Assembly (NCBI RefSeq): GCF_028198145.1
Contig: NZ_CP116338.1
Coordinates: 2,604,001-2,668,000, forward strand
Direction of reading: 5' to 3'
DNA from: Microbacterium sp. nov. GSS16
GTDB lineage: Bacteria > Actinomycetota > Actinomycetes > Actinomycetales > Microbacteriaceae
DNA: 64,000 nt
Below the pieces are notes generated by a model. It was not told where the DNA came from and did not search any database. It saw only the letters and a list, made by a program, of their open reading frames with translations. Below, in pieces: positions 23,169-62,356 of this stretch (its first letter is position 1; every line of letters begins with the position of its first letter). Position numbers and translations under genes: made by a program.

Positions 23169-23241
23169 TGCCCCCGACAGGAATCGAACCTGCGACCTAC
23201 GGTACCGGAAACCGGCGCTCTATCCGCTGAGCTACGGAGGC
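23169..23241 (-). tRNA. tRNA-Arg (anticodon CCG, reads CGG)
   Basis: A 73-nt cloverleaf: acceptor GCCTCCG/CGGGGGC with a U4-G69 wobble pair, D-arm GCTC/GAGC, T-arm GCAGG/CCTGT with loop TTCGAAT, and anticodon loop TTCCGGT. The discriminator base is A and CCA is not encoded. The top anticodon-stem position 27-43 reads C opposite U, a mismatch in an otherwise regular stem. Confidence 0.93.
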
Positions 23242-23309: not shown

Positions 23310-23636
23310 TCAGAGCATCCAGACCGTCAGTGCGATCACGGCGAGCAGCGGCGCCGTGCCCTGAGTGGCGGCGGCACAGAGCTTGGTGCGGTCGGAGAAG
23401 ACCAGCACGAGGGCCGCGGCGAGCATCATCCCCGTGCCGGCGAGGGCGAGGGTGACACCCGCCGTCTGTGCCCCTACCGCGACCAGGACGACCCCGAGGA
23501 ACGCGGCTAGGGCGAGGAAGAGGTTGTAGAAGCCCTGGTTGAAGGCGAGGGGCCGCGTCGTCTCGGCATCGGCAGGCTCCCCCACCCGCGCCGGACCCTG
23601 CCGCACCAGCCTGACCGGGAGCCGAATGCCGGTCAC
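23310..23636 (-). pseudogene. DUF1304 family membrane protein, 5'-truncated
   Basis: The 108-codon frame keeps three hydrophobic helices and the family segment RPLAFNQGFYNLFLA near residue 30. Known DUF1304 proteins start with an additional membrane helix and a short loop that is missing here. Residues 1-6 are instead encoded by one end of a 49-bp palindromic repeat (23617-23665), and about 15 unrelated residues follow. The frame could still be translated, but it looks like a gene whose front was removed or replaced when the repeat arrived. The CPBP-like gene lies upstream. Confidence 0.65.
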
Positions 23637-23665
23637 CGGGCCCGCGCACCCGACATCTGGCTCCC
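23617..23665. repeat. 49-bp REP-like palindrome, copy 1
   Basis: Starts GGGAGCCGAATGCCGGT and ends CGACATCTGGCTCCC. The two ends are imperfect inverted arms around a GC-rich centre. Length (49 bp) and arm sequences match five copies near 41366-42874. It overlaps the first codons of the truncated DUF1304 frame. Confidence 0.85.
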
Positions 23666-39833: not shown

Positions 39834-39885
39834 TGTTACGTAACATTTCCCGGCGGTTGTCGCCCGCCGCGCGGGTTCGTAGTGT
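39834..39885 (+). promoter_or_regulatory. metY promoter region with 12-bp perfect palindrome
   Basis: TGTTACGTAACA (39834-39845) is a perfect palindrome upstream of a likely promoter, TTGTCG (39857-39862) and TAGTGT (39880-39885) with a 17-bp spacer. It does not match the McbR site known from corynebacteria. It may serve metY, the divergent SDR operon or both; the protein that binds it is unknown. Confidence 0.5.
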
Positions 39886-39938
39886 CGCTTGCAGGCATCC
39901 AGCCGACCGACCCCACGACCCGAACCTGGGAGCACGTC

Positions 39939-41261
39939 ATGACCGCAGCCGAGAACTGGCGCTTCGAGACCAAGCAGATCCACTCGGGCGCCGCGCCCGA
40001 CCCGGTCACCAAGGCCCGCGCCACGCCGATCTACCAGACCACCTCGTACGTGTTCGACAACGCCGACCATGCCGCGAACCTGTTCGCGCTGGCCGAGTTC
40101 GGCAACATCTACACCCGCATCCAGAACCCCACGCAGGACGTGCTCGAACAGCGCCTCGCCGCTCTCGAGGGCGGCACCGGAGCCCTCGTGCTTTCCAGCG
40201 GCCAGGCGGCCTCCACCTTCGCGATCCTGAACATCGCCCAGGCGGGCGACCACTTCGTGGCATCCAGCGCGATCTACGGCGGCACCTACAACCTCTTCAA
40301 GTACACCCTCGCCAAGCTCGGCGTCGAGGTGACCTTCGTCGAGAATCAGGACGACCTCGACGAGTGGCGCGCAGCCGTGCGCCCGAACACGAAGCTGTTC
40401 TTCGCCGAGACGATCGGCAACCCGAAGATCAACGTGCTCGACATTCGGGGCGTCGTCGACGTGGCCCACGAGAACGACGTGCCGCTGATCGTCGACAACA
40501 CCATCGCGACGCCGTACCTCATCCGCCCCTTCGAGCACGGCGCCGACATCGTCACGCACTCGGTCACGAAATTCCTCGGCGGTCACGGCACCACCATCGG
40601 CGGCGCGATCATCGACGGCGGCACTTTCGCGTGGTCGCAGCACGTCGACAAGTTCCCCGGACTCACCGAGCCCGACCCCTCGTACCACGGCGCGTCGTAC
40701 ACGACCGCAGTCGGCGACGGACTCGCGTACATCATCAAGGCCCGCGTGCAGCTGCTGCGCGACCTCGGCTCTGCCATCTCGCCGCAGAGCGCGTGGAACC
40801 TCATCCAGGGCATCGAGACGCTGTCGCTGCGCATCGAGCGCCACGTGCAGAACGCGCAGGAGATCGCCGAGTGGCTCGAGAACCACGACGACGTCGCTTC
40901 GGTGAACTACTCGGGTCTGCCGTCGTCGCCCTGGTACGCCAAGGCCAACGAGTACGCCCCGAAGGGCGTCGGCGCGGTGCTGTCGTTCGAGCTGAAGGGC
41001 GGCGTGGAAGCCGGCCGTGAGTTCGTGAACAGCCTGAGCCTGTTCAGCCACCTCGCCAACATCGGCGACGTGCGCTCGCTCGTCATCCACCCCGCGTCGA
41101 CCACGCACTCACAGCTCTCGCCCGAGCAGCAGCTCTCGGCGGGCGTCACGCCCGGCCTCGTGCGCCTCTCGGTCGGCATCGAGAACATCGACGACCTCAA
41201 GGCCGACCTCGACAGCGCGCTGGCTGCCGCCCGCCGCGTCGCCGAGGCCGCCCGCGCCTGA
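39939..41261 (+). CDS. metY: O-acetylhomoserine sulfhydrylase
   Basis: A 440-residue PLP enzyme of the Cys/Met-metabolism family that makes homocysteine directly from O-acetylhomoserine and sulfide. The PLP lysine lies in [13 protein letters not shown] near residue 211; [11 protein letters not shown] and [12 protein letters not shown] are family landmarks, and the length fits MetY rather than MetB/MetC. GGGAG precedes the ATG. Its substrate comes from MetX, encoded 1.7 kb downstream. The pair is usually adjacent in actinobacteria; here a DUF559 gene and five palindromic repeats lie between. Confidence 0.95.
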
Positions 41262-41276
41262 CCTCCTCCACTCCCG

Positions 41277-41310
41277 CGGATGCCCCGGACCGGACGGTCC
41301 GGGGCATCCG
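41277..41310 (+). terminator. Hairpin terminator after metY
   Basis: A perfect 15-bp stem (CGGATGCCCCGGACC and its complement) with a GGAC loop, 16 bp after the metY stop. It should end the metY transcript, so metX needs its own promoter. Confidence 0.85.
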
Positions 41311-41365
41311 TGCGTTCCAGGCCGGCGGCCCTCCGTCGGCGCCCCGCCCCGCGGGAGAGCTGCGC

Positions 41366-41414
41366 GGGAGCCACATGCCTGTTCCCGCGGCCCCACAACC
41401 GACATCCGGCTCCC
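41366..41414. repeat. 49-bp REP-like palindrome, copy 2
   Basis: Starts GGGAGCCACATGCCTGTT and ends AACCGACATCCGGCTCCC, with a GC-rich centre. Identical to copy 3. Lies in the gap between metY and the DUF559 gene; the surrounding gap (41311-41563) otherwise holds only a weak GGGGC/GCCCC hairpin at 41548-41562. Confidence 0.9.
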
Positions 41415-41459
41415 CCACACGCCCGGCGGCAGCCATCCGCCGAGCCGCCGATCCTGCGC

Positions 41460-41508
41460 GGGAGCCACATGCCTGTTCCCGCGGCCCCACAACCGACATC
41501 CGGCTCCC
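41460..41508. repeat. 49-bp REP-like palindrome, copy 3
   Basis: An exact duplicate of copy 2, starting 94 bp after it, with extra identity on both flanks (GCGC before, CCCACAC after). The 45-bp spacer between copies 2 and 3 carries its own CGGCGG/CCGCCG inverted repeat. Confidence 0.9.
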
Positions 41509-41563
41509 CCACACACACCCGACGGCAGCACCGGCCAACTGCCGGTCGGGGCCACTTGCCCCG

Positions 41564-42499
41564 TCAGGCCGTGGCGATCTCCAGTCGCGCCGCTCGGGCA
41601 CGCGTCAACCGCCCGAGGAACGCGGATGGGTCGGTCAGATCGGACTCGGTCAGCCGGATCACGATCCACCCGAGATCCTCGAGCCGACGTTGGCGACGGA
41701 TATCGGCACGCCATTGCTCTTTCTCCGTGCGGTGCCCGTCGCCCTCGTACTCGATCGCGATCTTGAGCTCGGGGTAGGCCAGGTCGACGCGCGCGACGAA
41801 ATCACCGCCGTCGCGCACGATCCACTGCATCACCGGCTCCGGCAGCCCGTGATCCATGATCAGCACGCGCGTCTCGGACTCCTTCGGAGACTCGGCGCCC
41901 TCACGCGCCATGTCCAGCGCACGACGCGCCCTGACACACCCGGAGAATCTCCCCCACTCCTCCAGCCGGCACCGGATCTCCTCACGGGTCGCCAAGGGTC
42001 TCGGTGCCTTGATCCCGGGGTAGTTCGCGGCGGTGGTGAGGAGCGCGTCGAAGGCCGCCACCAGCTGAGCGAAACCGAGGGCGGACCGCGTAGTGAGCAC
42101 TGCCGCGACCGGGTCGACCACTGCCGCCCCCGTGAAGATCATCTGCCGGGCACGGTGCGGCACCAGCCGACGTCCCTTCACTCCCGCACCGCGGGGCGGC
42201 GCCGCGTCCGGCCCGACGCACACATGCAGCGGCTCTGCAGCGCTCCAGGCATCCGGAAGCGGCAGTCCCCACAGACGCATCGCGGTGGGACCGACGAACA
42301 CCTGTCCGGGCAGCATGATGGCGCGATAGCAGTCGACCAGATCGCGAAAGCTCCCCGGGGCGCTTCTCGCACGAGCACCGTGGAACGGACGAGCGAGATC
42401 AACGGCGTCTCTTCGTGATCGCCCCACTCCGGCAGCGGCAGCAGCACGGGTTGTGAATCGGTCACCGAGGCGACTGGGCAGGGGCTTCGGTCGGCGCAT
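41564..42499 (-). CDS. DUF559 nuclease-like protein (Vsr-type fold)
   Basis: A 311-residue protein. The N-terminal half resembles the winged-helix/AbiEi-like domain often joined to DUF559 in Microbacteriaceae (RRDAVDLARPFHGAR near residue 30). The C-terminal part is a DUF559 PD-(D/E)XK-like nuclease domain: RVDLAYPELKIAIEYEGDGHR near residue 245 supplies Asp and Glu ligands, and RRQRRLEDLGWIVIRLT follows. It is antisense to metY and metX, with two palindromes downstream and three upstream. Start is uncertain; ATG at 42499 was chosen over an upstream GTG because the family begins near there. Cellular role unknown. Confidence 0.75.
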   Translation of the reverse strand: MRRPKPLPSRLGDRFTTRAAAAAGVGRSRRDAVDLARPFHGARARSAPGSFRDLVDCYRAIMLPGQVFVGPTAMRLWGLPLPDAWSAAEPLHVCVGPDAAPPRGAGVKGRRLVPHRARQMIFTGAAVVDPVAAVLTTRSALGFAQLVAAFDALLTTAANYPGIKAPRPLATREEIRCRLEEWGRFSGCVRARRALDMAREGAESPKESETRVLIMDHGLPEPVMQWIVRDGGDFVARVDLAYPELKIAIEYEGDGHRTEKEQWRADIRRQRRLEDLGWIVIRLTESDLTDPSAFLGRLTRARAARLEIATA

Positions 42500-42642
42500 C
42501 CCGACATCGTCGCCGCATCGCGACAGGTGCGGATGCCCAGATCCCGGCATCCGTGCACAACTTCCCGGATGCGGCAGGCTGTGGACGAATCCTCCGCGAG
42601 CCGTCCAGTGCACCGTGGTCCGGCGCTACCGATCCCGCGTCC

Positions 42643-42691
42643 GGGAGCCAGACGCCGGTTACAGACCGCCGAGAACCCGCATTCGGCTCCC
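42643..42691. repeat. 49-bp REP-like palindrome, copy 4
   Basis: Starts GGGAGCCAGACGCCGGTT and ends AACCCGCATTCGGCTCCC. Differs from copy 5 at one base. GCGTCC precedes and GCCCA follows it, as for copy 5. Confidence 0.9.
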
Positions 42692-42741
42692 GCCCACCAC
42701 GCAAGCGGCTGACAGCCGACGGACCTTGCGGATCCGCGTCC

Positions 42742-42790
42742 GGGAGCCAGACGCCGGTTACAGACGGCCGAGAACCCGCATTCGGCTCCC
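42742..42790. repeat. 49-bp REP-like palindrome, copy 5
   Basis: Starts 99 bp after copy 4 and is nearly identical to it. Located upstream of the DUF559 gene, in the 464-bp region without genes between that gene and metX. Confidence 0.9.
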
Positions 42791-42825
42791 GCCCATGACG
42801 CGGGCGCAGTCACGCCGAGTCCACC

Positions 42826-42874
42826 GGGAGCTAGACGTCGGTTGCAGACGCCCGAGAACCGACATCCGGCTCCC
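42826..42874. repeat. 49-bp REP-like palindrome, copy 6
   Basis: Starts GGGAGCTAGACGTCGGTT and ends AACCGACATCCGGCTCCC. Its arms are the best-paired of the family. It shares its right arm with copies 2 and 3 and its centre with copies 4 and 5. Confidence 0.9.
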
Positions 42875-42951
42875 GCCCAGCACATCCGCAGCAACCGGGC
42901 CGACGTGGCACGTCAACCCGTAACCTGCGGCGGGCTCAGTCACCCACAGGC

Positions 42952-42957
42952 GAGAAT
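42952..42957 (+). promoter_or_regulatory. Candidate leaderless -10 box of metX
   Basis: GAGAAT followed by 6 nt and the metX ATG; a TANNNT-like box in a position that fits a leaderless mRNA and explains how metX is expressed behind the metY terminator. Confidence 0.45.
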
Positions 42958-42963
42958 GGACGC

Positions 42964-44169
42964 ATGGACTGGCAGACGACGTCTGAGGACACGGTGCCAT
43001 CGGCCCCGGTGACCGAGGCCGACGTGCGTCTGCTGCGCGCACGCCCCCCGGCCACGGGCGCCTGGCGGGACGGCGATCCGGCGGGTGAGCGGCACTTCAC
43101 GTTCCTCGGCGACTTCCGCACCGAGAACGGTCAGCTGCTGCCGGCCACCCGCCTGGCGTGGGAGAGCTGGGGCGAGCTGAACGAGGCGCGCGACAACGCC
43201 GTGCTGATCCTGCATGCCCTCACCGGCGACAGCCACGTCCGCGGCCCTGCGGGGGCCGGGCACCCCACCGCCGGATGGTGGGAAGACATCGTCGGACCTG
43301 GATCGGCGATCGACACCGACCGGTGGTTCGTCATCGCGCCGAACATGCTGGGCGGATGCCAGGGATCGACAGGACCTGCGAGCATCGCGCCGGACGGGCG
43401 GGAATGGGCATCCCGCTTCCCCTACCTGACCATCCGCGACCAGGTCGCGGCGCAGATCGGCCTCGCCGACACGCTCGGCATCGAGTGCTGGGCTGCGGTG
43501 ATCGGCGGTTCGATGGGCGGCATGCACGCCCTGGAGTGGGCCGTGATGCAGCCCGAGCGCGTGGAGCGCCTGGCCGTGCTCTCGTCTCCCCCGGTGACGA
43601 CCGCCGACCAGCTGGCGCTGAACTTCGTGCAGCTCGAGACGGTGCGCATGGACCCGCGTTTCGCCGGCGGGGAGTACTACGACGCGGCGCTCGGCGAGGG
43701 CCCGCACCGCGGCCTCGCGCTGGCGCGCCGGATGGCGCTGCTGAACTACCGCAGCCCGATCGAGCTCAACCAGCGCTTCCAGCGCTCGTGGCAGTCGGAT
43801 GTGTCGCCACTCGGGCGCGGCGGACGGTTCGCGGTCGAGTCGTACCTCGACTTCCACGGCAACAAGTTCACCCGCCGGTTCGACGCCAACAGCTATCTCA
43901 CCGTCGTCGAGGCGATGAACTCGCACGACATCGGCCGCGATCGCGGCGGCGTCGAGCAGGCGCTGCACACCGTGACGGCGAGAACCCTCGTGCTCGGGAT
44001 CGACACCGACCGGCTGTTCCCCGTCGACGGCCAGCAGCGCATCGCCCGCAGCATCCCGAATCTCATCGACGATGAAGCCGTGGTCCTCACCAGCGACTTC
44101 GGTCACGACGGCTTCCTCATCGAGACGGACCCCGTCGGAGCGCATCTGGAGCGTCTGCTCGCCTCGTGA
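42964..44169 (+). CDS. metX: Homoserine O-acetyltransferase
   Basis: A 401-residue alpha/beta-hydrolase-fold enzyme that acetylates homoserine with acetyl-CoA, the first step towards methionine. The nucleophile loop is VIGGSMGGMHALEW near residue 180, the catalytic Asp lies in LVLGIDTDRLFP near 343 and the His in FGHDGFL near 380. Length matches MetX. Its product is used by MetY. The start at the ATG is supported by the -10 box 6 nt upstream. Confidence 0.94.
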   Translation: MDWQTTSEDTVPSAPVTEADVRLLRARPPATGAWRDGDPAGERHFTFLGDFRTENGQLLPATRLAWESWGELNEARDNAVLILHALTGDSHVRGPAGAGHPTAGWWEDIVGPGSAIDTDRWFVIAPNMLGGCQGSTGPASIAPDGREWASRFPYLTIRDQVAAQIGLADTLGIECWAAVIGGSMGGMHALEWAVMQPERVERLAVLSSPPVTTADQLALNFVQLETVRMDPRFAGGEYYDAALGEGPHRGLALARRMALLNYRSPIELNQRFQRSWQSDVSPLGRGGRFAVESYLDFHGNKFTRRFDANSYLTVVEAMNSHDIGRDRGGVEQALHTVTARTLVLGIDTDRLFPVDGQQRIARSIPNLIDDEAVVLTSDFGHDGFLIETDPVGAHLERLLAS

Positions 44170-62312: not shown

Positions 62313-62356
62313 CGCAGAAGCGCCGGTCATCCTGAGCGATGACCGGCGCTTCTGCG
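62313..62356. terminator. Strong bidirectional hairpin terminator
   Basis: A perfect 19-bp stem (CGCAGAAGCGCCGGTCATC and its complement) with a 6-nt loop between the convergent whiB1 and pdtaS genes. Confidence 0.9.

Follow-up and report, generated by a model that had tools for sequence, protein, structure and literature searches.

Five 49-bp palindromes lie between positions 41366 and 42874 of the window, i.e., the 64,000-nucleotide stretch of the Microbacterium sp. nov. GSS16 genome analyzed here (NZ_CP116338.1, positions 2,604,001 to 2,668,000; the genome is a single contig, C1, of 2,906,279 bp), and flank on both sides a gene encoding a 311-residue fusion protein (41564..42499, minus strand; start inferred from relatives, the longest open reading frame being 41564-42613). 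Two palindromes, identical to one another, are located on the 3' side of this gene (41366..41414 and 41460..41508) and three on its 5' side (42643..42691, 42742..42790 and 42826..42874), all found by pattern match, and a solitary palindrome at 23617..23665 is recovered by both the pattern and a covariance model. An earlier note on this DNA had listed the same six starts and described copies of 49 bp with a GGGAGC(C/T) start, a GGCTCCC end and arms of approximately 18 nt, all of which was reproduced, as was the clustering of the copies (start-to-start spacings of 94, 1183, 99 and 84 within 41366-42874). Its claim of conserved arms also stands, but that of variable centres does not hold throughout: 41366 does not differ from 41460 in its centre, and 42643 agrees with 42742 to 93% across 73 nt. 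The gene between the two clusters, which the note had overlooked, best explains the palindrome family.

Residues 2-199 of the gene product, its putative DNA-binding part, are predicted to adopt the two-part fold of AbiEi, while residues 204-307 are predicted to form a Vsr/I-Bth0305I-like (EDxHD) nuclease fold in which the E, D, H and D residues are present (E207, H256 and D266 invariant, D239 nearly so). A sequence search of the PDB returned nothing at E≤0.01 (when loosened, 3hrl at 0.02 and 3r3p at 0.15); NCBIfam gave no match for three of the four proteins searched and, for the fourth, DUF559 far under the cut-off; and PHROGs gave one weak match, of unknown function. No other related nuclease gene was found within the window.

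Matching palindrome pairs around related genes

At least 326 of 366 Microbacterium genomes carry a relative of the nuclease protein (a DUF559-type 'endonuclease domain-containing protein'). Above a gap in the scores, at least 72 loci (≥267 bits) in 61 of the 366 genomes constitute clade A; the best five candidates per genome were scored, so that these counts are lower bounds, and one partial match (L200) is excluded from the 72. An inverted repeat of 40-75 nt is present at most 500 nt away on at least one side of 55 of the 72 clade-A genes, and these repeats differ in sequence between subclades. If a pair is called matching when the best palindrome to the left of a gene and the best to its right reach a likeness score of at least 18, such pairs surround 33 of the 72 clade-A genes and 19 of 37 other Microbacterium DUF559 genes, compared to one of 30 GNAT genes and, for flanks taken from different loci, 61 of 1424 and 26 of 712. 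The 37 non-clade loci (taken down the score ranking, partial matches and some rows being skipped) had been fetched as negatives, and their pairs were thus unsought; as these paralogues are also flanked by palindromes, they were rejected as a negative control, and GNAT genes and mismatched flanks were used for this purpose. Outside Microbacterium, matching pairs occur at 12 of 40 DUF559 loci versus one of 1165 mismatched flanks, the figure of 12 applying to wider regions (seven of 40 under a narrow gene-boundary rule) and including one locus counted twice in close relatives. These comparisons show that flanking by matching pairs lies well above the controls. The flanking palindromes of other subfamilies measure 46-74 nt, as bounded by the detector. 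The GSS16 genome itself possesses a second clade-A gene (G000:C1:1239284-1240225, locus L163), which is flanked by palindromes of a different, GGGATG/GGAGATGG type.

Palindromes vary with the sequence of the protein more than with the flank on which they lie. Between loci, palindromes are alike in 69-76% of 54 pairs at 80-90% protein identity, in 8-13% at 60-70%, in 1-2% at 50-60% and in approximately none at 30-50%, and upstream-to-downstream comparisons resemble same-side ones in most identity bands. Furthermore, the left and right palindromes of the same locus are alike in 48% of 109 loci, which, together with the fall with protein identity, indicates that the two flanking palindromes tend to vary jointly and in step with the protein. 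Several quite different palindrome types occur at a single genomic location, which comprises 41 loci when two flanks are used and 45 when one is.

The nuclease gene also diverges faster than its neighbours, i.e., a Cys/Met metabolism pyridoxal phosphate (PLP) enzyme (39882..41261, plus strand, PF01053), presumably metY, and an alpha/beta hydrolase (42964..44169, plus strand, PF00561), which we take to be metX. Both adjoin the module in the five relatives compared, in which the nuclease protein is 57-62% identical and the neighbours are 91-93% and 83-85% identical. Such fast divergence would also suit an anti-phage or anti-plasmid nuclease for which the palindromes serve as control or decoy sites that restrain the enzyme, and this idea draws further on PADLOC, in which a methyl-directed restriction enzyme was weakly matched (E 0.0014), and on the proposal, in part of one published account, that Vsr-like and winged helix-turn-helix parts of giant proteins act in defence (PMC3710099). 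It is nonetheless improbable: the gene has a metabolic gene on either side, and the scanned neighbours include neither a methylase nor a toxin; the protein has just a few, distant matches beyond chromosomes (in one phage record and six plasmid records, 27-40% identity); and dispersed species-specific copies would be left unexplained. A phage origin was likewise rejected, given that the palindrome pattern was not found in viral contigs and that the only phage record matched by the protein is a distant one. A separate perfect 16-bp inverted repeat is located just 3' of the metY-like gene (41277..41310); it is missing from the output of the terminator scan as it has no T run.

Dispersed copies, their form and their placement

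A strict degenerate 49-bp pattern yielded seven copies in the GSS16 genome and none in 97 other genomes, its reversed control being absent from the former and present once each in two of the latter. A loose single-arm search gave no excess over its control on the two strands (88 and 87 versus 111 and 82), its best matches indicating variant copies. A covariance model, as the earlier note had suggested, was built: R1, trained on 14 own-genome copies, raises the count to 17 (the 14 included), all of 49 bp and at eight places, i.e., one copy at C1:101171, four at C1:738776/738890/738983/739075, pairs at C1:1086861/1086964, C1:2487523/2487607 and C1:2879122/2879204, and, within the window, the single copy at C1:2627617, the pair at C1:2645366/2645460 and the triplet at C1:2646643/2646742/2646826. 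Twelve of the 17 lie away from the nuclease gene. Weak R1 matches at C1:269731-269948 (L044) were discarded, as they fall in an 84-nt tandem repeat (C1:269648-269948) that looks coding; repeats of this kind, mimicking the palindrome arms, extend over L044:4561-4976. In agreement with the earlier note, which knew of no described family with this sequence in Microbacteriaceae, Rfam at its gathering score returned no match for the window and seven loci except one tRNA. A tRNA gene is located at window positions 23169-23241, approximately 0.4 kb from the solitary palindrome.

In other Microbacterium genomes, for example G034, G135, G138, G153 and G172, R1 finds relatives of 48-49 nt. Thirty-two copies from six genomes form a nearly gapless alignment, A3 (omitting R1/R2 matches at L083, L092, L094, L096 and L097), the consensus of which reads RGRAG, four variable positions, RYGYCGG and then the mirror image, from which individual copies deviate; the 48-49-nt copies have RGRAG...CTYCY ends, save for one GGATG...CATCC copy (L093). 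The four aligned G034 palindromes pair at 16-18 of 18 positions. A second model, R2, derived from A3, matches at least 84 of the 366 Microbacterium genomes at E≤0.01, of which 18 ('rich') do so at E≤1e-6; this cut was chosen afterwards, the remaining 66 being weaker and treated as unproved, and counts are lower bounds as the best 16 candidates per genome were scored. R3, built from a AGATGGAAAACG-type palindrome, also of 48 nt, was applied to the best 150 candidates per genome, again giving lower bounds. A stringent pattern search of a public collection of 84,980 species returned nine stretches, six of them in two Microbacterium genomes; the three single stretches outside the genus are taken as chance, except that L121:2946-2993 (Mobilicoccus caccae), a strong 48-nt hairpin not scoring as coding, may be real. 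Other observations are a weak R2 match distant from other copies (window positions 62316-62353; 27 bits, 38 nt), a tandem repeat of 37 bp, CGAGTCGGCCCCCGAAACGTAACGAGTCCGCACGGCA, close to a cluster of palindromes (L045:5671-5855), and tandem repeats of 36 bp, built around a CCCTTCGACAGGCTCAGGG core, next to two palindromes (L047:5456-5671).

No related gene is found at 24 of 26 R2-type loci (7-19 kb), the other two (L087 and L125) being module loci, nor at 20 of 28 R3-type loci (approximately 3 kb), and solitary non-coding copies are dispersed over about 40 sites in two genomes. Their number follows the gene. R3 matches (both strands, E≤0.01) number 8-82 in 11 genomes whose gene has the R3 type, nine of which supplied training copies, 0-29 in 12 genomes whose clade-A genes are of other types and 0-3 in the 15 that lack clade A; the GSS16 genome has 21. 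Similarly, clade A is present in 13 of the 18 R2-rich genomes versus 48 of 348 others (Fisher p 1e-7, indicative as the genomes are related).

The intergenic preference that the earlier note had put forward as a check was examined by coding score and the sites prove non-coding: a score above 5 is reached at 0 of 17, 0 of 24 and 0 of 28 palindrome sites (above 0 at 2, 0 and 2, respectively) and at 77.5% of 2,940 random positions. Compensatory changes in the arms, a further check named there, were also observed, with 78 double-sided cells in A3 against 37.5 in shuffled and at most 32 in slid versions. The family is dispersed, clustered, non-coding and arm-conserved, with double-sided arm changes. 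Such changes, together with non-coding sites whose neighbours are mostly tandem or convergent and the finding that five of seven tested strands fold better than shuffles (z -2.6 to -4.2), would be expected of bidirectional terminators or mRNA-stabilising hairpins amplified as repeats. Yet the other two strands fold no better than shuffles, the pair 13-37 is Watson-Crick in just 12 of the 32 A3 copies, a terminator scan, which demands a T run, finds none in 41200-43000, and matching pairs around one gene family would go unexplained; we therefore consider this alternative very improbable. We tentatively read the symmetry as the dyad of a duplex binding site rather than as a selected single-stranded hairpin.

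Duplex sites would equally serve pure regulation, the main rival explanation, in which an AbiEi-like autoregulator uses the palindromes as its operators and the dispersed copies make up a regulon, with no movement and with copies arising by duplication and drift. The N-terminal half of the protein is predicted to be AbiEi-like, AbiEi antitoxins repress from inverted repeats according to part of the published account (PMC7319586), and mismatches in the relatives have no strand bias (19 G.T versus 15 A.C), as duplex sites predict; in own-genome copies the figures are 16 G.T and 37 A.C. However, palindromes are also found on the 3' side of the gene, the gene neighbours of 58 sites or clusters are tandem in 30, convergent in 22 and divergent in six cases (rough strand calls), which is a poor arrangement for operators, the copy number reaches about 40 sites, and the nuclease domain has been kept together with its invariant and nearly invariant residues. 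On balance, regulation alone seems unlikely, if less so than the defence and terminator readings.

Some observations relate to movement and rearrangement. The window clade occupies 11 location clusters by one-flank clustering, which is no more than suggestive with regard to gene movement. Whole-gene transposition was rejected for the nearest pair at 'different locations', L125 (M. murale) and L133 (G261), since these are the same locus with an insertion sequence (IS) inserted; similarly, L142 and L159 align over the entire 2.7 kb compared and are taken as one locus. In the former case a single IS30-like insertion of approximately 1.26 kb (L133:172-1491; family assigned from the translated sequence) is located in the loop of a flanking palindrome, the identity of the two loci beside it amounting to 99.6% across 2.5 kb on one side and 94% across 197 nt on the other. 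Elsewhere, REPs (repetitive extragenic palindromes) are described as insertion targets, as for ISPpu9 in part of one report (PMC8450116). Two genomes of a related genus differ by a 1.35-kb stretch bounded by two similar palindromes, which one of them possesses (L335:862-2209) and the other lacks (L333:2088-2160), with flanks of approximately 94% identity; the stretch contains a probable sigma/anti-sigma gene pair, named from translations, and the difference suggests recombination between palindromes.

A REPtron-like reading and its relation to known systems

Taken together, we think it probable that the palindromes are the cognate sites of the AbiEi-like/EDxHD fusion, the gene and its flanks forming a selfish, REPtron-like module and the solitary palindromes its non-autonomous copies. 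The association itself is shown by matching flanks, co-variation, dispersed copies, a copy number linked to the gene, placement outside coding sequence and rapid divergence of the gene, and from it we infer that the protein would bind, cut and copy its palindromes. Several results weigh against it. Foldseek at E≤0.001 gave a single match, Rv2827c, and shared folds are no demonstration of activity. No matching pair was detected by the present test at 39 of 72, 18 of 37 and 28 of 40 loci, and the likeness score and its threshold were fixed after a first look at the data. Co-variation is uneven, in that downstream-downstream palindromes are alike in 18% of 68 pairs at 70-80% identity and the nine pairs at 90-100% identity are alike in 44-67%, below the 80-90% band. 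Some palindrome families exist without a clade-A gene: five R2-rich genomes (G034, G056, G146, G213 and G214) have none among the scored candidates, gene loss being one possible cause, and G033, also without clade A, has one strong R3-type site. Finally, no insertion could be paired with a clean empty site, mobility therefore being inferred from distribution alone, and no target-site duplication is obvious by eye in the flanks inspected, for which no systematic test was made.

By analogy to AbiEi, the step ranked likeliest would be the binding of the double-stranded palindrome by two protein monomers, each on one arm. As described in part of the work on these proteins, the AbiEi site ahead of its own gene consists of two 23-bp inverted repeats separated by 3 bp, and the repeats bound by Rv2827c are 13 bp apart (PMC7319586); binding of the AbiEi kind would fix the palindrome length near 49 bp (23+3+23, our own sum). 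Ranked second, palindrome binding may also repress the nuclease gene. In the third-ranked step the nuclease may nick or cut at or near palindromes, and repair from another copy would spread and homogenise the palindromes and, rarely, the gene, in the manner of homing or gene conversion. More tentatively, and with somewhat less than even confidence, the Actinomycetota-wide DUF559/MTES_1575 family may be a large unrecognised selfish class in which each AbiEi-nuclease fusion recognises, cuts and copies its own palindrome, a counterpart of the REP system and its RAYT (REP-associated tyrosine transposase) that evolved independently from homing-endonuclease and antitoxin parts. In the open-licence literature, no paper linking DUF559/MTES_1575 with palindromes, or reporting REPs in Microbacterium, appeared among the matches listed, as judged from titles and abstract openings. 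A RAYT-type transposase is the sole REP partner described in the literature compared, CGTC REPs having none. Were another enzyme family, unrelated to RAYTs, to leave this genomic signature as well, modules of palindrome plus enzyme would have had more than one origin. A possible role would then also emerge for an actinobacterial gene family that is common but unexplained, and the 64 matching pairs scored, probably among many more, would provide natural protein-palindrome pairs for the study of specificity co-evolution.

The resemblance to REPs that the earlier note had proposed can be set against published definitions, each available in part. REPs are described as palindromes of 20-40 bp, one end of which bears a GTAG/CGTC tag (PMC3733652), and the marks of RAYT/REP systems are palindromes on both sides of the gene, co-evolution of the two, rapid evolution of the gene and a copy number following it (Nunvar et al. 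2010, PMC2817692), a report which stated that no RAYT homologues were found in other major lineages at that time. The present palindromes do not belong to the REP family: they measure 48-49 bp, the aligned ends carry no GTAG/CGTC tag by eye, and a search for Y1_Tnp (PF01797) gave no match in 17 palindrome-rich genomes, GSS16 included (the 18th, G056, was outside the search; the control was positive in five of 14 named genomes). Nor are the two closest pairs, 41366/41460 and 42643/42742, arranged in alternation as in BIMEs (bacterial interspersed mosaic elements), both being direct repeats. These results also led us to reject ordinary REPs moved in trans by a RAYT or another Y1 transposase, which clustered, non-coding palindromes of REP-like behaviour might otherwise have indicated and which we hold to be the least probable of the alternatives.

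Other known systems share single features with the module. CGTC-tagged REPs are likewise palindromic repeat families without a RAYT partner, but the present copies have no CGTC tag at their ends, and a candidate partner gene was found (compare PMC3733652, in part). The predicted fold of the N-terminal 200 residues is like that of AbiEi and Rv2827c, which, as reported in part of PMC7319586, recognise pairs of 23-bp inverted repeats that precede their own genes; unlike these, the protein described here is fused to a nuclease, the adjacent DUF1814/nucleotidyltransferase toxin gene of type IV AbiE systems is not present, the neighbours being the PLP enzyme and the hydrolase, and the palindromes occur on both sides of the gene and genome-wide. 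In contrast to the EDxHD enzymes I-Bth0305I and Vsr, as far as described in PMC3943268, the gene is intergenic, and not in an intron or target gene, and has palindromes on both sides.

The closest likeness is to REPtrons, as presented in part of PMC2817692: a gene between two copies of its own palindrome, here of a different family, dispersed intergenic copies, co-evolution of palindrome and protein, a gene evolving faster than its neighbours, and copies that follow the gene, albeit with five exceptions among the 18 rich genomes and an uneven trend. It differs in that the enzyme is not a Y1/HUH transposase and that the palindromes are 48-49 bp long, without a GT(A/G)G head and with close neighbours in direct orientation. 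As RAYT/REP features are thus seen with another enzyme, and no RAYT in 17 genomes, the module works like a REPtron yet is not a member of that family, its enzyme being unrelated.
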